Below, piece by piece: positions 6,553-17,204 of a DNA stretch of 64,000 nucleotides (position 1 is its first letter; each line of letters begins with the position of its first letter). The DNA is taken from assembly GCA_026418015.1 (NCBI GenBank), contig JAOACE010000016.1, positions 62,001 to 126,000 on the forward strand, in the 5' to 3' direction. The position numbers and the translations under genes were made by a program. The stretch is from Leptospiraceae bacterium. Its GTDB lineage: Bacteria > Spirochaetota > Leptospiria > Leptospirales > Leptonemataceae. A model generated the notes under the pieces. The model made no database searches, was not told where the DNA came from, and was given only the letters and a program-made list of their open reading frames with translations.

Positions 6553-7164
6553 ATGAGAGCAATTATGAATTTTCTTAAAATCTTAAAAATAATCTTGATT
6601 GTTTTTTTAAATTTATTTTTTGTCCTTAGTTGTTTTGAAGTCGAAACAAAAGATAAAAATGACAAATACGAAATCAGCATATAAAAAAAAGATAAGGATA
6701 GAATTAAAATCGACGAAAAAGTTTTTTATTTACTCTTAACGATTTTTAATAGTAATGAACCATTGGAAATAAACGGAAGTTGGAAAGATAACAACGAAAA
6801 TTCTTATAAAATCTATGCAATGAAAAATCCTTATTTGGGTTTGAGTGGTTTTTGGCAAAAACAAAATCAACCTAAAACCATCGTGGATTTTGATAACACT
6901 GCAAAGGTATTGTATGTTAAATCATTGAATGAACCATCAAATGTAGATTGTAATGCAAATGGAATCAACAATGAACAAGGAATAGAATGCTATTCTCGCA
7001 TTGTGTGGACAAATTATCAGGACAAATTATATATATGCGAAATCGTATCGAATAAAGCCACATTAGAACAAGCTAAAAATGATTCTACAACAGTAGATTC
7101 CTCTAATCCAGATGTTAGTGGTTGTGGGGCAAATCCTTGGATTCAGCTTCAACGAATTCGTTAG
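6553..7164 (+). pseudogene. Disrupted lipoprotein gene, paralogue of the one at 8704
   Basis: From the ATG at 6553 (or the ATG at 6565, which has a GAGAG sequence upstream) the frame encodes a lipoprotein signal ending FFVLSC, then runs into TAA at 6682-6684. The same frame continues without any indel and encodes a domain (EINGSWKDNNENSYKIYA, ECYSRIVWTNY, SLEQAK-like, DSSNP, SGCG) that matches the intact lipoprotein at 8704-9258 along its whole length. One nonsense change therefore separates the signal peptide from the domain. A downstream TTG at 6763 could start a 133-aa cytoplasmic fragment but would have no export signal and no Shine-Dalgarno. Either a recent pseudogene, a read-through case or a base error. 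Confidence 0.75.
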
Positions 7165-7306: not shown

Positions 7307-7941
7307 TTATCTTATTAGTTGAATGATTTTTAGAATAAGTTCTAGTGCACTTTGATTTACGAATAAAACTACAAAAAAAAGCAACGTAAACATTATGGTG
7401 GTTTTTTTTTCTAAACGTATTATATCTTTTGCTATTTTTTGTGTTTCGGATTGAATTTGTTCTTTTAGTATGGAAGTTTCGGACTTAATCATTTCTTCGA
7501 GTCTTTTTGTTTCGGATTCGATTTTCCCTTCGAGTCTTTTGATTTCTGATTCCATCTTCCCTTCGAGTCTTTTGATTTCCGATTCCATCTTCCCTTCGAG
7601 TCTCTTGATTTCCGATTCTATTTTCCCTTCGAGTCTTGTAATTCTTTCTTCTAGATTCATGATTTTTCCGTCTAGTCGTGCTGTTTCGGATTTAATCATA
7701 CCTTCTGAACGTTCAGATTCAGATTTAATCATACCTTCTAATCGTGCAATATCCTCTTTTGTTGCTAATTCTTTGGTCAATTCGTCTTTTAATTCAAGTT
7801 TCTTTTGGAGAGCAAGAGACTCTGCTTTTTTTCCATTTCGTCGTAAGCCCTTTCTAATACTTCTGCTACTTTACGACCTTCTTCTTTCCCTAATCGGTCT
7901 TCGAAAAATTGGAGAGTTTCTACTTTGATCACACTTGCCAT
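7307..7941 (-). pseudogene. Coiled-coil protein with C-terminal membrane anchor, frameshifted in an A7 run
   Basis: The gene appears as two frames. The ATG at 7941 opens a frame reading MASVIKVETLQFFEDRLGKE and on to DEMEKK, which then leaves frame and stops after about 50 codons. Adding one A to the A7 run (T7 on the + strand, 7826-7832) restores a continuous protein that joins the frame ending at 7307, reading KKAESLALQKK into LATKEDIARLE. The product would be about 210 aa: a short helical N-terminus, a long coiled coil with 11-residue periodicity, and one C-terminal membrane helix, resembling DUF1640/CCDC90-like proteins. A TTGACT and a TATATT upstream would place the transcript start at or near the ATG. 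True pseudogene, slippage-controlled gene or sequencing error. Confidence 0.7.
7504..7635 (-). repeat. Four tandem 33-bp repeats encoding 11-residue coiled-coil units
   Basis: Four units of 33 bp (7504-7536, 7537-7569, 7570-7602, 7603-7635), each ending CCCTTCGAGTC on the + strand, differ by only a few bases. On the coding (minus) strand each unit encodes RLEGK(I/M)ESE(I/T)K. The near-identical DNA means the copy number could change by recombination or slippage in multiples of 11 residues without losing frame. Confidence 0.9.
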
Positions 7942-8454: not shown

Positions 8455-8568
8455 TCCAAGAGGGAGGAAGTTGGGTGAGAATCCCACGCTCACGGTGGAA
8501 CTGTGATGCCCAGTAATGGGACAAGCCAGATCTTCCCCGATATGGTAAGCCCGTAAAACTGCCATATC
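8455..8568 (+). promoter_or_regulatory. Cobalamin riboswitch aptamer
   Basis: The core of the cobalamin aptamer is readable in order: GGGAGGAAG, GGGTGAGAATCCCACGC, GTGGAACTGTGA and the B12-box-like AAGCCAGATC at 8523-8532. These match the family's conserved GGTGAGAATCC, CAACTGT and AGCCAGG(AG)AC segments with the usual spacing. A strong hairpin follows at 8538-8568 (arms CGATATGG and CCATATCG), where the distal hairpin involved in the loop-loop contact usually lies. It controls the seven-gene run starting at 8704; in this family, ligand binding normally turns uptake genes off. Confidence 0.9.
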
Positions 8569-8584
8569 GCCTGCCTGTTGGCAG

Positions 8585-8699
8585 AGGGTCCCTCTGGAGT
8601 AATAAACTGGAGGGACTTTCTGCTATCGCAAGATTTGCAAGAAATCTGCAATAGATACGTAAAAGTTCCTCCAGTTATTAAACTTTTAAACCGGAGGAA
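8585..8699 (+). promoter_or_regulatory. Riboswitch expression platform with alternative ribosome-binding-site hairpins
   Basis: Three helices compete. TTCCTCC (8666-8672) is perfectly complementary to the ribosome-binding site GGAGGAA (8693-8699) and would hide it. AACTGGAGGGACTTT (8605-8619) pairs over 15 positions (one G-U) with AAAGTTCCTCCAGTT (8662-8676), which captures the anti-SD and frees the ribosome-binding site; an imperfect inner hairpin (8623-8653) stacks within it. GTCCCTC (8588-8594) pairs with GAGGGAC (8610-8616) and would break that second helix. There is no terminator T-tract, so control looks translational. Confidence 0.7.
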
Positions 8700-8703
8700 A
8701 AAA

Positions 8704-9258
8704 ATGAGAGTTAAAAATTTTTTTACCATTTTAATCGCTTTTGGGTTATTGGTCAATTGTTTTGGCTTGGAGACAGATAAAAAAGATAGTGGATTGGATA
8801 AAAACGCAGAAAACCTCTTACTTGCTGATTATTTAAATAAAACAAATGTCGAATATTTAGAGATTAATGGAAAGTGGAAGGATAATTGGAATACCTATCA
8901 CTATATCTATGCAGAAAAAAATGCTTTTTCTGGTTTACATGGCTTTTGGGAAGGTTTAATAAATCGCGTAATTGTAGAGTTTGATAATAACACAAAAACC
9001 CTCTACGTAAAAGGAATTAATGAACCATCTTGGGCAGATTGCAATGGAAATGGAACAAATGGACAACGTGGTGTAGAATGTTATTCGCGTATTGTATGGA
9101 CAAAATACAATAACGATTACTACTACTGCGAAATTGTATACAACAAAGGTAGTTTAGAGCAAGCAAAAAGTGACCCAACAACCGCAGATAGTTCTAATCC
9201 AGTAAGTGGTGGATGTGGTGGTTTTTCTTGGACAAAATTCGTTCAAAAATTAGATTAA
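8704..9258 (+). CDS. Cobalamin-operon lipoprotein, first gene
   Basis: A 184-aa lipoprotein; the signal peptide ends FGLLVNC. The start is the ATG at 8704, set by the GGAGGAA ribosome-binding site at 8693-8699; an upstream in-frame extension runs through the riboswitch and is not coding. The mature domain has a GKWKDNWNTYHYIYA strand, several Trp/Tyr-rich segments, four cysteines and a DSSNP-SGGCGG end. It is clearly paralogous to the broken gene at 6553. No enzyme motif is seen. Its place immediately behind the cobalamin riboswitch, ahead of a TonB receptor, suggests a surface role in corrinoid capture; this is inference from context. Confidence 0.85.
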   Translation: MRVKNFFTILIAFGLLVNCFGLETDKKDSGLDKNAENLLLADYLNKTNVEYLEINGKWKDNWNTYHYIYAEKNAFSGLHGFWEGLINRVIVEFDNNTKTLYVKGINEPSWADCNGNGTNGQRGVECYSRIVWTKYNNDYYYCEIVYNKGSLEQAKSDPTTADSSNPVSGGCGGFSWTKFVQKLD

Positions 9259-9272
9259 TCAGCGGTAGGAAA

Positions 9273-10136
9273 ATGAAGATCAAAAGCAAATTGATAGGAG
9301 CCCTTCTCTTGGGCTCTTTTTTGTTTTTGGATTGTTCAAAAGCCACCGACAATCAAGATGCTACTCTACTTAGTTTGATCAACCCAAATCCAGAAAATCC
9401 TAGTTCCACTAGCAATACTTCTTCTTTTGTGTTTGTAAATGTTCGTCTGTTCGATAAGGTAACCGAAGCACCAGGAAGTGGTAGTGGTTCTTTTTCGGAT
9501 CCACAGAAAGCCATTAATGGTGTTTTTGGATGTGGTAAAACTTGTGGTTCTTTGGATGTATATTCTCTTAAATCTTCAGCTACTGCAACGTATTGCAAGC
9601 CAAACGAAAAATGTATCGTGTTAGAAGTCGAAAATAAAAAAATCAAAAATGGTAGCGGGATTGATTTTGTTGTGTTCGAAAATCCTTTTTGCCTAGGAGG
9701 TATAGCAAATTGTGGTATATCGCATTTTATGGAACCTGTTATCGTAGAAGTAAGCATTGATGGAATCAACTGGTGTGGGTTTAATCCTCAATATGTAGGA
9801 GATAGTACCAGTGCAAATTTAAACAATCCAAACAATTGGCAACGATTTGCTGGTAGAGAACCAGTAGTTTATCATCAGTCGAATTGGACATATTCCGAAG
9901 AAGATATATTTGATCCAACAATAGCAGGTGGCGATGGTTTTGATCTACAAGATCCTAATTTCGGTTCAAGTGGCGATGGTTGTACTTCTGTTATAAAAAA
10001 TCAAATATTAAGCGATGGATTTATCTATTTACGTTTAACAACTGCATTTTCGCGAGGATTCCCCGTTACGCCGGGTTCTTTTGATCAAGCATCTGATATA
10101 GATGGTGTAATAGCAAAATATGTAACAGATAGATAA
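9273..10136 (+). CDS. Cobalamin-operon lipoprotein, second gene
   Basis: A 287-aa lipoprotein beginning at the ATG at 9273 (the frame is open further upstream, but the signal peptide KIKSKLIGALLLGSFLFLDC sets the start). The mature protein is Gly/Ser/Asn-rich with conserved-looking cysteine pairs and beta-strand segments such as GIDFVVFENPF, PVIVEVSIDGINWCGF and an acidic DIDGVIAKYV end. It resembles 'cell surface protein' genes found beside BtuB-like receptors in other phyla; the exact family is not certain. It sits 14 bp after the first lipoprotein. A terminator-like hairpin lies inside its signal-peptide codons. Confidence 0.8.
   Translation: MKIKSKLIGALLLGSFLFLDCSKATDNQDATLLSLINPNPENPSSTSNTSSFVFVNVRLFDKVTEAPGSGSGSFSDPQKAINGVFGCGKTCGSLDVYSLKSSATATYCKPNEKCIVLEVENKKIKNGSGIDFVVFENPFCLGGIANCGISHFMEPVIVEVSIDGINWCGFNPQYVGDSTSANLNNPNNWQRFAGREPVVYHQSNWTYSEEDIFDPTIAGGDGFDLQDPNFGSSGDGCTSVIKNQILSDGFIYLRLTTAFSRGFPVTPGSFDQASDIDGVIAKYVTDR
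9296..9322 (+). terminator. Intragenic terminator-like hairpin in the signal-peptide codons
   Basis: AGGAGCCC (9296-9303) pairs with GGGCTCTT (9311-9318) over eight positions with one G-U, loop TTCTCTT, followed by a run of T to 9322. It begins about 23 bases after the ATG at 9273. A translating ribosome would cover it, so it could act as a polarity or attenuation element linking translation of this gene to expression of the downstream receptor genes. Confidence 0.5.
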
Positions 10137-10149
10137 ATAGGAGAAAAAA

Positions 10150-10617
10150 ATGATCAAAAAAAAATATAAAATTATTTTATTGATTATATTTACATTAATT
10201 TTTTCTTGCAAAAAAGAAGAAACCAAACAACAAAATAATCATGCTGAATATCGAGTAGATTTTATAATAAAAGGGGATTCCTTTTCTAAGAATCTTAATC
10301 AAACTTTTAGTACAACAAAATCTCTTTTCGAAATTATGATGGATTTAAAAAGTCAAAATCGATTGGATTTTGGGTATACGGGATCAAAAGATACCATTTT
10401 TATTACAGAAATCGATGGAATTAAAAACGAAGGTAGTGGAAAACAAAAAAGGAATTGGATATTCTTTGTCGATGGAAACTTATCAGAAAAAGGGGTTTCG
10501 CAAGTTCTGATCGAAAAAGACACAGAAATTCTCTGGTGCTTTACCCAATGGGAAGAAAAAGAAAAATGTAATCATAAAATAGGAGGTAATGATGAAACTA
10601 ACAACAGAAAAAACTGA
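10150..10617 (+). CDS. DUF4430 (transcobalamin-like C-terminal domain) lipoprotein
   Basis: A 155-aa lipoprotein with signal peptide ending IFSC. Residues about 35-135 match the DUF4430 fold, which is related to the C-terminal domain of transcobalamin and intrinsic factor: a sheet with SLFEIMMDLKSQN, then FITEIDGIKNEG, then RNWIFFVDGNLSEKG and a final acidic/aromatic strand TEILWCFTQWE. In this family the domain is used to hold corrinoids or to assist their uptake at the surface. Its position in a riboswitch-controlled operon with a TonB receptor makes cobalamin binding likely, but binding residues cannot be confirmed by eye. A GGAGA ribosome-binding site precedes the ATG. Confidence 0.85.
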   Translation: MIKKKYKIILLIIFTLIFSCKKEETKQQNNHAEYRVDFIIKGDSFSKNLNQTFSTTKSLFEIMMDLKSQNRLDFGYTGSKDTIFITEIDGIKNEGSGKQKRNWIFFVDGNLSEKGVSQVLIEKDTEILWCFTQWEEKEKCNHKIGGNDETNNRKN

Positions 10618-11161
10618 GACATGGATTTGGCTTGGATTATTTGTTATGATTGGAGTAATGTCGCGATGGATTGAGCATATTCCTAATGTCACTCCCATTG
10701 TGGGCATAGCTTTGTTTATGGCTTATCTGTGGAATTGGTCTTATAGTGTAGTATTTACGGTATCCACACTATTATTAAGCAATTGGATTTTAGGGCATGA
10801 TTTTGATTATGTTCAAGTATCTGTATATCTTGGGTTGTTGTTTCCTTCTTTTTTAGGAAAGTATGTAAAAAAAATAAATTCTTTTTATAAAAAGTATATA
10901 TCAGTAATTGGATTAAGTATTGTTTCTAGTGTATTTTTTTATCTTATAACCAATTTTGCAGTATGGCTTTGGAGTGGAATGTACGAACATACAATTGATG
11001 GACTATTATTTTGCTACGAAATGGCAATTCCATTTTTTCGAAATACACTCTTAGGGGATTTATTTTCTTCTTTGGTAATTTTCGGTATGTATGATTTATC
11101 AAAAATATTTATAAAAAATCATTATTTAATCAAAACCAAACAAATTAAGCCAGTCAATTGA
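10592..11161 (+). CDS. DUF6580 membrane protein, ECF S-component-like
   Basis: A 189-aa inner-membrane protein with about five helices. The opening (SRWIEHIPNVTPIVGIALFMA) and later TNFAVWLWSGMYEHTIDGLLFCYEMAIPFFRNTLLGD segment match DUF6580, a family often encoded beside cobalamin genes and resembling S components of energy-coupling-factor transporters. The ATG at 10592 is preferred over the one at 10589 because AGGAGGT ends at 10587 and would sit too close to the first. It overlaps the previous gene by 26 bp. Role proposed: inner-membrane step of cobalamin or corrinoid uptake; not proven for the family as far as I know. Confidence 0.8.
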   Translation: MKLTTEKTETWIWLGLFVMIGVMSRWIEHIPNVTPIVGIALFMAYLWNWSYSVVFTVSTLLLSNWILGHDFDYVQVSVYLGLLFPSFLGKYVKKINSFYKKYISVIGLSIVSSVFFYLITNFAVWLWSGMYEHTIDGLLFCYEMAIPFFRNTLLGDLFSSLVIFGMYDLSKIFIKNHYLIKTKQIKPVN

Positions 11162-11172
11162 CTGGTTCTTTT
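11150..11172 (+). terminator. Palindromic hairpin between the DUF6580 and TonB-receptor genes
   Basis: CCAGTCAATTGACTGG (11150-11165) is a perfect 16-bp palindrome that can fold as a 6-bp stem with an AATT loop, followed by TTCTTTT. It spans the DUF6580 stop codon and abuts the receptor's ATG at 11173. It could be a weak terminator, an RNA-processing site that sets receptor levels separately, or a DNA-binding site. Confidence 0.45.
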
Positions 11173-13185
11173 ATGAAATTTATCTATCAAACGCTGATTT
11201 TTATTTTTTTCGTACTCTCGATCTATTCTCAGGAATATACCATTATCGTAAAATCCAACAAAGAAACAACTCAAAAAAAAGATGTGATTAACATAACAAA
11301 AGATGAGCAAATCCATTATACCTTAGATAAACTATTAGAAAAAGAAATTGGTTTTTTAATCCAAAAATATGGTGGAGATGGCAGTTATTCTTTGATTCGA
11401 ATTCGCGGAAGTAATGCAAACCAAGTAAACATTTATCTTAACGGTATTCCTCTGAATTTTGCAGCATATAGTGAAGTAGATGTGTCGGATCTAAATGTAT
11501 TTAATTATCAAACCATCGAAGTAGAAAAAAACGGCAATATGACCGGATTAACAGGAAGTTCGATTGGTGGTTCTATCAATTTAATCCCAGATTTCCAAGA
11601 AGAAAAGAATCAAGTTTACGTACAAGGTGGTTCTTATAAAACCTTTGGAGGTGGAATTTTCTATCAACAATTGTATAAACAAGAAAACGAAGAAAGTTAT
11701 TCTGGTGGATGGAATATCTCTGTATATAAAGAAACATCGGATCAAAATTATCGATTTCGAAACCATAATGGAACAATTTATTTTAATACTATCGATGATT
11801 TTAACGATACAAGAAAAAATGCTCAATACAAGAAAACGAGTAGTCTGTTGAATGGTTTTGTTCAGCTAGGTAATACAAAACTACAATTCTTGAACGACAC
11901 CTTTTATAGAAATCATGGAATTCCTGGACCTATAACAAGACAAACTTACAAAACAAAAAGAGAACACTTGCGAAATACATCGGGAATATTTACAGATACA
12001 AAGCATTTCTTCTGGGATAATGTTCGCTTAAAATCGCGAGTATATTATACTTACATTAACAATAATTTTAAAGATCCCGAAAATGAGCTATCTTTTGGAG
12101 CAAATAGTAGTAAAGCGTTCTTACACAACAAAGGGATTCAACTAATGCCACAGGTTTTATTTGATTTTAACAAAGATTTTCTCTACGAAATGAATTTTTT
12201 GTTGGGATACGAAGAAGAGTTTTTTTTCGAAGATAAATACACGAATTTTGGTTTTAAAACAGAAGATGTTCCAGAGAAAAAACGCTATCATTATAGCTTA
12301 CATTTTTCTAATCGGTTGGAATTTTTTGATGGCATAGTAGAATTCATTCCAGAATTTCGAAACGAACAATACAACAATAATTTTTACATAGAATCTCAGA
12401 CAAAAAGGCTTCTGGATCTACAACAATTAGAAAAAGACGAATCAAGAATCAATTTTATCAATGAATCTTATAAACTTTGGATTACTGCATTTAATAACAG
12501 TCAGCATAAACTTAAATTCTTTTTGGATTATCGCGAAGAAAAACGATTGCCTTCTTTTATCGAGCTATTTGGCGAAAAAGGTTCAATTGTGCCTAATTTA
12601 AAACTAAGACCAGAAAGTTCTTTTAATCGCGAAGCAGGCTTTAAATATTCTTTGGATGATCTTCTTTTGGATCTTCGCATTTATAGAAGAGATGTAAAGG
12701 ATTTAATACAGTTTATACCGAACTCTCAGTTTTCTTTAAGAGCAGAAAACATAGCAAAGGCATATTTTATAGGAACAGAAACAACATTAAAATATATTTA
12801 TAAAGAATTATATAAAATATATTTATCGTATAGTTATCAGGTTGCAAGACAATTCAATAAGAATAATTTTTACAACAAAGAAAGCTATATTCCTTTAATC
12901 CCTATGCATACGTATAAAAGTGGTTTGATTCTTTTCCCCAATGGTAAATGGGAATATCATTTTGATGCATTTTACTTTGGTGCTTACTTTAAAAACAAAT
13001 CGAATGATTATTTTTCTTATCAACCACCTAAATGGGTTTATAATACGAGTTTATATTATAAATGGAAAGATGTTTTGACTGTTTTTGTAGAAATTCGAAA
13101 TTTACAGAATCAATTATACGAAGATATTATAGGTTATCCATTGCCAGGAAAAAATTATATCGCAGGTTTAAAATATTTTTTTTGA
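11173..13185 (+). CDS. TonB-dependent outer-membrane receptor, BtuB-like
   Basis: A 670-aa protein with a signal peptide (KFIYQTLIFIFFVLSIYS), a plug domain (about residues 35-145, including SLIRIRGSNANQVNIYLNGIPLN and IEVEKNGNMTGLTGSSIGGSINL) and a beta-barrel ending in an aromatic YIAGLKYFF, the usual outer-membrane sorting signal. Length is normal for this family. I start at the ATG at 11173 because the earlier TTG at 11158 only adds five residues before the signal peptide. The N-terminal EYTIIVKSN stretch may hold the TonB box. The cobalamin riboswitch upstream and the DUF4430 partner argue for corrinoid import. Confidence 0.92.
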   Translation: MKFIYQTLIFIFFVLSIYSQEYTIIVKSNKETTQKKDVINITKDEQIHYTLDKLLEKEIGFLIQKYGGDGSYSLIRIRGSNANQVNIYLNGIPLNFAAYSEVDVSDLNVFNYQTIEVEKNGNMTGLTGSSIGGSINLIPDFQEEKNQVYVQGGSYKTFGGGIFYQQLYKQENEESYSGGWNISVYKETSDQNYRFRNHNGTIYFNTIDDFNDTRKNAQYKKTSSLLNGFVQLGNTKLQFLNDTFYRNHGIPGPITRQTYKTKREHLRNTSGIFTDTKHFFWDNVRLKSRVYYTYINNNFKDPENELSFGANSSKAFLHNKGIQLMPQVLFDFNKDFLYEMNFLLGYEEEFFFEDKYTNFGFKTEDVPEKKRYHYSLHFSNRLEFFDGIVEFIPEFRNEQYNNNFYIESQTKRLLDLQQLEKDESRINFINESYKLWITAFNNSQHKLKFFLDYREEKRLPSFIELFGEKGSIVPNLKLRPESSFNREAGFKYSLDDLLLDLRIYRRDVKDLIQFIPNSQFSLRAENIAKAYFIGTETTLKYIYKELYKIYLSYSYQVARQFNKNNFYNKESYIPLIPMHTYKSGLILFPNGKWEYHFDAFYFGAYFKNKSNDYFSYQPPKWVYNTSLYYKWKDVLTVFVEIRNLQNQLYEDIIGYPLPGKNYIAGLKYFF

Positions 13186-13193
13186 TTGAATGT

Positions 13194-14117
13194 ATGAAGT
13201 TAAAAGCATATCTATTAGTTTTATTAACAACATTTTTTTGGGGATTTACTTTTCATTTAAGTAAGTACTTACTTAAATTTGTTGAACCAATTCAAGTTGC
13301 TTTTTTTCGCTTTTTTTATTCTTCTCTTTTTTTGTTTGTGTTTTTTATCATGGTTTATAAGAAGCGAAATCCAATTTCTTCTAATCGATTTTTTTCTAAA
13401 ATAAAAAATCATTGGAAAAATATATTGTTAATGTCTTCTGCAGGTATTTTTATGTTTAATTTTTTTATTTATAAAGGAATCCATCTTTCCAATCCAGTAA
13501 TAGCAGCGATTATTTCCGCAGCAAATCCAGCAATCACTGCATTGTTGTTAAGGTTTTGGAAAAAAGAACCTCAATCCATTTATACAATCGTAGGAATTGT
13601 AATTGCATTTGTTGGTATTCTTATAACTTTAATGGAATCATTTCGTAGCAATCCATCGATCATGCAACTAATAGATTTTAATGTTGGAAATCTCTATATT
13701 CTGATTGCTACCTTTTCGTGGGCAGTTTATGGCATTTTAGGATATGATTTTTTGAGAAAATATCGCGAAGAGATGAACGAAATCGAATTAACAATTATCA
13801 ATATTTGGGTTGGAACTGGGATGTTATTTTTAGGATCACTAATGGAATTAAGTTTTTTTGATTTATTTCTAAATATTTCTAGGTTGGATGTTTTTTCGGC
13901 TTTGGTATTTATGGGGATTTTTTCTTCGGGTTTGGGATATATCTGGTGGTACGAGAGTATTAAAATTATTGGTACAGCAAAAACAGCGATATTTATGAAT
14001 GTTATACCAATCATGGCAATGCTCATTGAATTTTTTCTTTATCAGAATCTTTCTGTTTATAAAGTGATAGGAGGTTTATGTGTCATCGCTGGTGTCACTA
14101 TTACAATTTATAAATAA
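13194..14117 (+). CDS. EamA/DMT-family transporter in the cobalamin operon
   Basis: A 307-aa, ten-helix inner-membrane protein of the drug/metabolite transporter superfamily, opening MKLKAYLLVLLTTFFWGFTF with a second-half motif GTAKTAIFMNVIPIMAMLIEFF. The ATG at 13194 follows the receptor's TGA by 8 bp; a longer frame through the receptor's end is not credible. EamA proteins are usually exporters of metabolites, so its presence between a TonB receptor and a propeller lipoprotein is unusual; it may move a cobalamin precursor or be a passenger. The last 38 bp overlap the next gene. Confidence 0.85.
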   Translation: MKLKAYLLVLLTTFFWGFTFHLSKYLLKFVEPIQVAFFRFFYSSLFLFVFFIMVYKKRNPISSNRFFSKIKNHWKNILLMSSAGIFMFNFFIYKGIHLSNPVIAAIISAANPAITALLLRFWKKEPQSIYTIVGIVIAFVGILITLMESFRSNPSIMQLIDFNVGNLYILIATFSWAVYGILGYDFLRKYREEMNEIELTIINIWVGTGMLFLGSLMELSFFDLFLNISRLDVFSALVFMGIFSSGLGYIWWYESIKIIGTAKTAIFMNVIPIMAMLIEFFLYQNLSVYKVIGGLCVIAGVTITIYK

Positions 14118-15225
14118 ATTTTATATTATATTTTTATTAATTGGTTTTTTTTCTTGTAAAGATATAAAAAGGCCCGATTTGTTATTGTCTTTACTATTAA
14201 ATCGCGGAGAAATCGGAATTATTACGTCGGATTTTAGTACCTCGGGAAGATTTTATACCATCAATCAATTGGGAATGCTTTCGTTTAGTTATGTTCCCGT
14301 ACATTCTGATGCTGTGGGATTTTATCTAAATAATAGGGTCTATATCTTAAATCGATTAAATCGCGATACAGTACAGGTATTAGACCCTAATTTATTTTAC
14401 AGGACAATTTCTGAGTTTAGCACAGGAAATAGTACAAACCCTCATGGTATTGCAATTTTTAACAATAAAGCATATATAACATTGTACGAAAAGGATTATC
14501 TTTTGGTTGCAGATCTTTTAACCGGAAGAGAAATCAAAAGAATCAGCCTAAGTAGTTATAGTGATACTGTTTCTTTTTTGTATCCAGATGGTATACCAGA
14601 GGCGAGTGGAATCATTTATCTTAACAATAAAATCTATGTTGCACTTCAAAGGTTGGATAGAACGAATCCTTATTTTATCTTTCCAACCACAGATGCATCT
14701 TTTTTGTTAGAGATTGATCCAAATATCGATCAAATCACCAGTTATAAGACTTTTTTATATAAAAATCCTATAAGCAAGTTAAAAGTTTATCATATTACGG
14801 GAGAAGATTGTATCTTTGTTGCAAATGCAGGCAATGTCGGATTTAATTTTGCCATAGATGGTGCAATAGAAGGATATTGTCCGAATTCTCAAATTCAATT
14901 AACTATCTTAAAAGAAATAGAAGTAGGAGGTGACATACTAGACTTTGTTGTGATCAATTCCTCTCTTGGATTTGCATTAGTGGAATATCAAGATTTTAGT
15001 ATGAGTATGATAAAGTTTAACCCAACAACAGGGAAGTATTTAGAAACGATTCTCTATTACAAAAATAATGGTTTTGCTGCTGGATTAGAATATTATAACG
15101 ACCAACTATTTATAGGAGAAAGTTCGCAGTTTCCACTGGTAAGAATTTATCACATAAATAAGAATATTTTTACCAACATTATTCCATTAGAACAAAATCC
15201 AACAGATATTTTTTTGATTCAATAA
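14080..15225 (+). CDS. Beta-propeller lipoprotein, possible BtuG-like cobalamin-capture protein
   Basis: A 381-aa lipoprotein with signal peptide ending LIGFFSC. The start is the GTG at 14080, fixed by TAGGAGGT at 14068-14075 inside the end of the EamA gene. The mature part repeats the YVTN/propeller pattern: short beta blades such as AVGFYLNNRVYILNRLNRD, TVQVLDP, PHGIAIFNNKAYITLYEKD, ASGIIYLNNKIYVALQ and GLEYYNDQLFIGES. Its place at the end of a B12-controlled receptor operon recalls BtuG of Bacteroides, a surface propeller that hands cobalamin to BtuB. Similarity to BtuG itself is not shown here; shared architecture and context are. Confidence 0.8.
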   Translation: MSSLVSLLQFINKFYIIFLLIGFFSCKDIKRPDLLLSLLLNRGEIGIITSDFSTSGRFYTINQLGMLSFSYVPVHSDAVGFYLNNRVYILNRLNRDTVQVLDPNLFYRTISEFSTGNSTNPHGIAIFNNKAYITLYEKDYLLVADLLTGREIKRISLSSYSDTVSFLYPDGIPEASGIIYLNNKIYVALQRLDRTNPYFIFPTTDASFLLEIDPNIDQITSYKTFLYKNPISKLKVYHITGEDCIFVANAGNVGFNFAIDGAIEGYCPNSQIQLTILKEIEVGGDILDFVVINSSLGFALVEYQDFSMSMIKFNPTTGKYLETILYYKNNGFAAGLEYYNDQLFIGESSQFPLVRIYHINKNIFTNIIPLEQNPTDIFLIQ

Positions 15226-15342: not shown

Positions 15343-15380
15343 CTTTGTCCAGGGATTGGACAAAGCGATTTCAAGGAGGA
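15343..15380 (+). promoter_or_regulatory. flaB1 leader hairpin and ribosome-binding site, candidate CsrA target
   Basis: CTTTGTCC (15343-15350) and GGACAAAG (15358-15365) form a perfect 8-bp stem with the loop AGGGATT. The segment CAGGGAT equals the core of the CsrA consensus (CARGGAT) and presents GGA in the loop. A second GGA is in the ribosome-binding site AAGGAGGA (15373-15380), the paired-site layout by which CsrA represses flagellin translation in other bacteria. Confidence 0.6.
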
Positions 15381-15385
15381 AGCGA

Positions 15386-16231
15386 ATGATAATAAACCAT
15401 AACCTTTCCGCGATTAATTCGCATAGGGTATTAAAATTTCAGAATTGGGAAGTCTCCAAAGATATGGAGAAGCTATCGTCTGGCCTAAGAATTAATAGAG
15501 CAGGTGATGATGCTTCTGGTTTAGCTGTTTCGGAAAAGATGCGAGCTCAAATTAATGGATTACGACAAGCAGAAAGAAATACAGAAGACGGTATGAGCTT
15601 AATCCAAACAACCGAAGGATATTTACAAGAACTTTCGGATATTCTTCAAAGAATTCGTGTATTGGCAGTTCAATCTTCGAATGGTATTTATACACCCGAA
15701 GACAGACAAATGATCCAAGTAGAAGTATCTCAATTAGTGGACGAAATTGATCGTATAGCATCACAAGCAGAGTTTAATAAAATGAGCCTTCTTCAAGGAC
15801 AATTTGCACGAGGCTCAAGAATTACTTCGATGTGGTTTCATATTGGTCCTAATCAGCACCAACGCGAAAGAGTATACATACAAACGATGACAGCTCTTGC
15901 TTTAAACTTAAAAAGAGTAGATGGGAATATTCTAACATTGTCTACACCTGAATTTGCTAACGAAGCAATCGGAACAATTGATAAAGCAATGGAAAAGATT
16001 AACAAACAGAGAGCAGATTTAGGAGCATACTATAATAGATTAGAGCATGCTGCCAAAGGTTTGATGATTGCTTACGAGAATACCCAAGCATCAGAATCTC
16101 GAATACGCGATGCAGATATGGCAGAGACATCTGTTAGTTTTACCAAGAATCAAATTCTTGTTCAGAGTGGAACTGCAATGCTAGCACAAGCTAATGTAAG
16201 ACCTCAATCTGTATTACAATTGTTGCGGTAA
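15386..16231 (+). CDS. flaB1: Flagellin FlaB, periplasmic-filament core protein (copy 1)
   Basis: A 281-aa flagellin with only the conserved N- and C-terminal helical domains (D0/D1) and a short middle, as in spirochaete FlaB proteins. It opens [17 protein letters not shown] and contains [33 protein letters not shown] and the C-terminal [11 protein letters not shown] block. It polymerises into the core of the periplasmic flagellar filament, exported by the type III apparatus without a cleaved signal. The start at 15386 follows AAGGAGGA; an upstream extension lacks flagellin character. It lies 127 bp from flaB2. The numbering of copies here is only by position. Confidence 0.97.
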
Positions 16232-16312
16232 TAATAAATAAAAAAGCGTAAGTGTTCCCATAGATATATATCATATCTTCTTTTTCGTAGATTTACCAGT
16301 TATCTATGAAGG

Positions 16313-16329
16313 AGAGGATATGATCCTCT
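16313..16329 (+). promoter_or_regulatory. flaB2 leader hairpin
   Basis: AGAGGAT (16313-16319) and ATCCTCT (16323-16329) form a perfect 7-bp stem with an ATG loop, 30 bp before the flaB2 start. Several GGA triplets cluster around it (GAAGGAGAGGAT, and GGACAAGGAGAG over the ribosome-binding site at 16342-16352), so it may also be a CsrA-type control region, but with GGA in the stem instead of the loop. Confidence 0.4.
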
Positions 16330-16358
16330 AAACGTAAGCTCGGACAAGGAGAGCAACG

Positions 16359-17204
16359 ATGATTATCAACCACAATATGAGCGCGGTTAATGCTAACCGC
16401 GTCTTAAAGTTTAACGTATGGGAAGTTGACAAATCAATGGAGAAATTGTCCTCTGGCATGAGGATTAATCGTGCTGGGGATGATCCATCTGGTTTGGCTG
16501 TTTCCGAAAAAATGCGTACACAGATAAAGGGCTTACGGCAAGCAGAGCGGAACACAGAAGATGGGATGAGTTTTATTCAGACTACGGAAGGCTATCTACA
16601 GCAGATGTCGGATATTATTCAAAGGATTAGAGTTCTTGCAATACAATCTTCGAACGGTATCTATAGTCCAGAAGATCGGCAGCTTATTCAAGTAGAAGTT
16701 TCTCAGTTAGTGGACGAAATCGATAGAATCGCTTCTCAGGCAGAATTCAATCGATTTGAGCTTTTACTTGGAAGGTTTTCGCGAACATCTCGAACAGGAT
16801 CTATGTGGTTCCATATAGGACCAAATGCAAACCAAAGGGAAAGAGCTTTTATAGCGACGATGACAGCAGTAGCGTTAGGTTTTAAAGATTCTAACGGAAA
16901 GATTGTGACTATCTCTTCTCCATCTAACGCGAATAAAACCATAGAGGTTGCAGATAAAGCTTTACAGAAGTTGATGAAGCAAAGAGCAGATCTTGGGGCT
17001 TATTACAACCGATTGGAAAGTGCAGCAAAAGGTTTGATGGTGGCTTACGAGAATATTCAAGCTTCGGAATCTAGGATTCGCGATACGGATATGGCAGAAG
17101 AGATCGTAAATTTAACGACGAAACAGATCTTAACAGAGACATCTGCCGCAATGCTTGCCCATGCTGGCGCAAGACCAGAAACAGTTCTAAGACTCTTACG
17201 CTAG
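16359..17204 (+). CDS. flaB2: Flagellin FlaB, periplasmic-filament core protein (copy 2)
   Basis: A 281-aa flagellin the same length as copy 1 and collinear with it, again lacking the outer variable domains. The ends ([33 protein letters not shown]) are strongly conserved while the central region (about residues 150-210) differs most, e.g. [18 protein letters not shown] against [18 protein letters not shown]. The ribosome-binding site is AAGGAG. By eye it uses more G/C-ending codons than its neighbours, in line with a highly expressed gene. A strong terminator follows directly. Confidence 0.97.

Follow-up and report, generated by a model that had tools for sequence, protein, structure and literature searches.

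A predicted riboswitch-controlled corrinoid uptake operon in a Leptospiraceae bacterium ties the suspected adhesin family LIC_13355 to vitamin B12

Seven genes behind a compact cobalamin aptamer in a Leptospiraceae bacterium very probably form a gene set for the capture and import of corrinoids (vitamin B12) that would be switched off by intracellular cobalamin. The riboswitch, the gene linkage, the family assignments and the relation of one membrane protein to the S-component CbrT were established by computation. The set gives the appearance of a full B12 uptake route, reaching from the outside of the cell to the inner membrane. The window, the whole stretch of DNA that was analysed (64,000 nucleotides), contains the following features:

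8458-8548, + strand: cobalamin riboswitch aptamer, compact form (covariance model R1; RF01482 below gathering score)
8586-8697, + strand: putative expression platform (leader fold and local hairpins)
8704-9258, + strand: lipoprotein 1 (LP1), LIC13354-like (NF047669 sub-threshold; AF2 model; adjoins LP2 in most spirochaete relatives)
9273-10136, + strand: lipoprotein 2 (LP2), LIC_13355 family (NF033170; AF2/Foldseek; riboswitch linkage across phyla)
10150-10617, + strand: DUF4430 lipoprotein (PF14478, 45 bits)
10592-11161, + strand: DUF6580 membrane protein, CbrT-like S-component (PF20221, 124 bits; PDB match 6FNP_A)
11173-13185, + strand: BtuB-like TonB-dependent receptor (Pfam plug and barrel; PDB BtuB matches)
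13194-14117, + strand: EamA-family transporter (PF00892, 132 bits)
14080-15225, + strand: propeller lipoprotein, BtuG-like by position (family profile against 1l0q)

All seven open reading frames lie on the + strand, with spacings from the first gene to the seventh of +14, +13, -26, +11, +8 and -38 bp, which bears out the rightward series with overlaps or gaps below 15 bp described in the first-pass annotation; the domain calls made there for DUF4430, DUF6580, the TonB receptor and EamA are matched by Pfam. Start codons are ATG at 8704, 9273, 10150, 10592, 11173 and 13194 and GTG at 14080, and the DUF6580 gene has a second in-frame start at 10589 besides the ATG at 10592. The seven genes are probably one transcription unit. 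Terminator-like hairpins on the + strand, at 9296-9318 in the signal-peptide region of LP2 and at 11148-11167 between the DUF6580 and receptor genes, are possible attenuation or processing sites and make co-transcription of all seven less certain. Two adjoining flagellin-like genes (15356-17204, +) come right after the operon. Elsewhere in the window, a paralogue of LP1 (6553-7164, +) has a lipoprotein signal peptide, an in-frame TAA after residue 43 and no riboswitch, and looks like a pseudogene; a coiled-coil frame of near-identical repeats (IKRLEGKMESE) lies at 7307-7780 on the - strand, with an open frame on the opposite strand as well.

The aptamer was not detected when the window was scanned with Rfam at curated thresholds, and at a relaxed threshold it matches RF01482 with 33.2 bits (E = 1.8e-4), below the gathering score of 50. 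A covariance model built from 12 relatives with the window excluded (R1) finds it at 8458-8548 with 79.2 bits (E = 1.6e-20) as the sole match in 64 kb, which by its score is far beyond chance. In one relative (L045), the R1 and RF01482 matches coincide (50.1 bits), and RF01482 or RF00174 matches at E < 0.1 in 10 of the 12 relative loci. Aptamers of the type found in this spirochaete class, for instance at 7145-7246 in L045 and at 10476-10572 in L031, mostly fall under the Rfam gathering cut-off, so that cobalamin aptamers of this type are probably under-annotated in the class. The leader is predicted to fold at -59.2 kcal/mol (z = -5.9 against shuffled sequence), a structure in which the first gene's ribosome-binding region is base-paired, and local hairpins are predicted at -17.1 kcal/mol (z = -3.6) and -11.1 kcal/mol (z = -2.3). 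A leader hairpin of 12 bp at about 8586-8618 has no clear T-run, and in an alternative long fold CCUCUGG (about 8591-8597) pairs with the ribosome-binding region CCGGAGG (about 8691-8697). These models point to a translational switch. Matches to miRNA-type Rfam families in the leader were set aside as hairpin artefacts.

The association of the aptamer with these genes recurs among spirochaetes. The LIC_13355 family, to which LP2 belongs, has members in 26 of the order's 30 genomes and in 37 of 48 across the class (raw counts that ignore phylogeny, as do the other spirochaete counts; some loci in two collections are the same assemblies). In the order, a cobalamin riboswitch usually precedes it directly, and its neighbours often include a BtuB-like receptor and a propeller; an R1 element lies directly upstream of the gene set in 19 of 20 spirochaete LP2 loci (10 of 11 among loci outside the R1 training). 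Two modules recur: riboswitch-LP1-LP2, with or without DUF4430 and DUF6580, and receptor-propeller, either joined to LP2 or separate. In seven genomes, the separate receptor-propeller pair follows an R1 element of its own; because such units have their own riboswitch in relatives, both halves appear to belong to one regulon. In G008 (L160), the two modules are divergent with an element each, as are an LP1-DUF6580 unit and a receptor-propeller-LP2 unit in G017 (L036), and a single aptamer precedes both modules, joined into one, in the window and in G003 (L047), a genome of the same genus. Across 30 genomes, LP2 and the propeller are both present in 25 and both absent in 4, with LP2 only in 1 (Fisher p = 1.8e-4, kinship ignored), and the four genomes of the order without LP2 are also without propeller and DUF6580. 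The cell contains MetH and thus uses B12.

Relatives of LP2 outside the spirochaetes were found by scanning genome contigs with its protein sequence, and several are MAGs with doubtful labels. The records are labelled Myxococcota, Deltaproteobacteria, Planctomycetota, CSSED10-310, Sumerlaeota and Thermoplasmatota, and none of the returned loci is labelled Leptospira. Across the 59 loci from outside the spirochaetes, 33 copies of the cobalamin core motif lie upstream on the same strand (in 32 loci), none lies downstream on that strand and one is on the other strand; RF00174 scores 55-118 bits in 21 of 22 bacterial loci, the 22 having been chosen for the core motif. For instance, L080 has the order riboswitch-LP1-LP2-receptor-propeller. 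The proposal of a riboswitch-controlled operon for cobalamin capture is therefore supported by the R1 match and by riboswitch linkage both in spirochaete relatives and in other phyla. Two Thermoplasmatota loci (L097, 1-5646; L106, 5170-12391) encode an LP2-like protein, DUF4430, EcfT, EcfA and an S-component in a row, and in L106 the LP2-like protein follows a Y_Y_Y domain and a propeller precedes the set. Neither locus showed a cobalamin riboswitch; by gene content, the two are a putative archaeal counterpart of the capture system. In L097, the S-component scores above the Pfam cut-offs for ECF_trnsprt as well as DUF6580 and thus bridges the two families.

The receptor matches only E. coli BtuB among PDB chains at E < 1e-3 (best E = 1.2e-9) and scores 65.1 bits against the BtuB equivalog TIGR01779, below the cut-off of 599.7. 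Support for the propeller is indirect: its family profile matches the YVTN propeller 1l0q (E = 2.3e-6) and gives a few weak matches besides, and no BtuG chain in the PDB was matched. The propeller adjoins the receptor in most same-family relatives that possess one, and the pairing of a BtuB-like receptor with a propeller, already pointed out for the window, recurs in many relatives. By analogy of position, the propeller would be the receptor's partner, as BtuG is.

The two lipoproteins at the head of the operon had been described as not known from any B12 system. No study linking LIC_13355 or DUF6580 to B12 was found in the searched literature. The two lipoproteins can, however, be named: LP2 passes the NCBIfam model NF033170 (LIC_13355 family) with 222.9 bits (cut-off 120), and LP1 is distantly LIC13354-like, with 29.9 bits against NF047669 (LIC13354 family exoprotein; cut-off 130). 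LP2 thus shares family membership with LIC_13355 of Leptospira; that family has been described so far only as a putative Leptospira adhesin, whereas LP2 is linked here to a B12 operon. In L. interrogans, a separate riboswitch precedes the known B12 receptor, LIC12374. When the AlphaFold2 model of LP2 (mean pLDDT 91) was compared with 350,542 PDB chains using Foldseek, the best two matches were BtuG1, which has a fused BtuH domain (PMC10404256), and BtuH, both weak (E = 0.01 and 0.04; TM 0.32). Two profiles gave no sequence relation to BtuH. The likeness of the modelled fold to the BtuH domain is counted as suggestive because the B12 hypothesis predated the structure search. Pfam DUF4465 (BtuJ) matches 0 of 38 LP2 family members and was rejected, and a match of LP2 to an alkane monooxygenase (E = 0.0093) covers a short segment only and was taken as chance. 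From family linkage and model together, we infer that LP2 is a surface cobamide-binding protein. LP1 is modelled as a small up-and-down beta barrel (pLDDT 88); an avidin-like fold was discarded, the top Foldseek matches being avidins at non-significant E >= 0.5. LP1 would be an accessory capture protein.

At the inner membrane, BtuCDF had been noted as missing, and indeed this genome has no BtuC-type permease (FecCD, PF01032), nor do any of the four genomes of the genus (G000-G003); strong FecCD permeases occur in 10 of 30 genomes of the order. The DUF6580 profile has a single match in the PDB, CbrT (6FNP_A; E = 4.1e-7 and 7.5e-8 in two alignments), the match at 7.5e-8 spanning the first 111 positions, N-terminal. 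6FNP is the structure of ECF-CbrT, and CbrT is its B12 S-component. DUF6580 is present in 24 of 30 genomes of the order and, on its sequence relation, is likely an inner-membrane B12 importer. EcfT/CbiQ (PF02361) was absent in the 30 genomes of the order, with control genomes positive. Because the order has no EcfT and the genus no BtuC-type permease, DUF6580 probably acts alone, by analogy with BtuM. It has a near-invariant Cys at residue 141 of the 190-aa frame. A point against this reading is that in the relatives G007, G009, G022-G024 and G027, DUF6580 has no riboswitch; in, for example, G022-G024 and G027, it stands alone.

DUF4430 is related to the C-terminal domain of transcobalamin and intrinsic factor. 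Its profile here matches residues 306-386 of gastric intrinsic factor weakly (E = 0.04), and according to a published note (PMC4350170), transcobalamins carry DUF4430 at their C-terminal end. Among 48 genomes of the class, it occurs in 11 and adjoins DUF6580 in all 11, which suggests a donor-importer pair in which the DUF4430 lipoprotein would supply the substrate to DUF6580.

Other readings of the operon can be weighed against this evidence. The LIC-family lipoproteins LP1 and LP2 might be host-binding adhesins whose position behind a riboswitch is incidental: for Leptospira, binding to laminin, plasminogen and endothelial cells has been reported for recombinant LIC_13355 (PMC11891782), and host-adapted cells have 3.77-fold more LIC13354 and 3.72-fold more LIC13355 (PMC3953431). 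However, the published protein was refolded from insoluble material in a study that does not mention B12 (PMC11891782), and the family extends to MAGs of several phyla and to archaea, with cobalamin riboswitches repeatedly in front of its genes and receptor, propeller or ECF genes next to them, which makes an adhesin role with an incidental riboswitch highly improbable. An operon under B12 control could also serve to import a related compound for use in the cell's own biosynthesis, for example cobinamide, a different incomplete corrinoid or cobalt. CbiC, which marks de novo synthesis, is encoded in the genome, so the cell may be its own source of B12; ECF-CbrT, moreover, carries cobinamide too (PMC5997447). 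Conversely, the solved relatives of the receptor at E < 1e-3 are BtuB only, the DUF4430 and CbrT relations indicate whole corrinoids rather than metal, and CbiQ was not found in the order, so that import of such a substrate is unlikely.

The inner-membrane step had been assigned to either DUF6580 or EamA, and the CbrT match speaks for the former. EamA is encoded within the operon, where its gene overlaps that of the propeller by 38 bp. Yet in G003 (L047), of the same genus, no EamA gene separates receptor and propeller, and none of the 28 relative loci has one near the operon; DUF6580 is both widespread in the order and similar to CbrT; that EamA takes the place of DUF6580 is thus scarcely credible. 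As a core part it is ruled out, not being conserved in relatives, and it is probably a passenger outside the conserved core. The expectation that the gene order is kept in other Leptospirales accordingly holds for the core and fails for EamA.

For corrinoid capture and import, the preferred reading, we infer all binding and transport steps, as well as surface exposure of the lipoproteins, as follows. Intracellular cobalamin would bind the aptamer (8458-8548) and turn the operon off, probably because the first gene's ribosome-binding site becomes inaccessible. At the surface, LP2 (9273) and perhaps LP1 (8704) would bind cobamides and pass them to the propeller lipoprotein (14080), which would sit on the BtuB-like receptor (11173). 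The receptor would move the corrinoid into the periplasm using TonB energy, where the DUF4430 lipoprotein (10150) would hold it and hand it to DUF6580 (10592). Like BtuM, DUF6580 would do without an ECF motor and, as a CbrT-like S-component, carry the corrinoid into the cytoplasm, with EamA a presumed bystander.

By analogy, the operon's mode of action belongs with the assisted BtuB systems of the Bacteroides type, and its lipoproteins and inner-membrane step differ. With the BtuB-BtuG-BtuH/BtuJ loci of Bacteroides (PMC10404256, PMC8941943, PMC12751083), it shares a cobalamin riboswitch, a BtuB-type receptor with a propeller lipoprotein, and extra surface lipoproteins. In contrast to those loci, it has DUF4430 and DUF6580 for the inner membrane and no BtuCDF, the LIC_13355 family replaces BtuH or DUF4465, and no sequence match between the propeller and BtuG could be detected. 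The S-component of ECF-CbrT of Lactobacillus delbrueckii is a distant sequence relative of DUF6580 (6FNP; PMC5997447), although the order of the window has no EcfT, and hence no ECF motor, and DUF6580 is accompanied by the DUF4430 lipoprotein and an outer-membrane receptor. BtuM of Thiobacillus denitrificans is likewise S-component-like, in a Gram-negative host without BtuCDF or an ECF module (PMC6072759); unlike in that case, DUF6580 has no sequence match to BtuM in the PDB, and its Cys141 is only a candidate equivalent of BtuM Cys80.

We lean slightly towards a broader reading in which LIC_13355 is a previously unrecognised cobamide-binding domain family of spirochaetes, myxobacteria-like bacteria, planctomycetes and Thermoplasmatota archaea, structurally allied to BtuH, and in which DUF4430 and DUF6580 form a B12 route that replaces BtuCDF by a motor-less CbrT-like importer; LIC_13355 of the pathogen would then serve mainly in vitamin capture. 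The analysis provides a testable function for uncharacterised families (LIC_13355, DUF4430 with DUF6580, and the receptor-linked propeller) and a candidate inner-membrane B12 step for Gram-negative bacteria without BtuCDF. By connecting a suspected adhesin family with B12 uptake, in archaea as well as in several phyla of bacteria, it calls into question the adhesin reading of a Leptospira lipoprotein that has been studied for host interactions.
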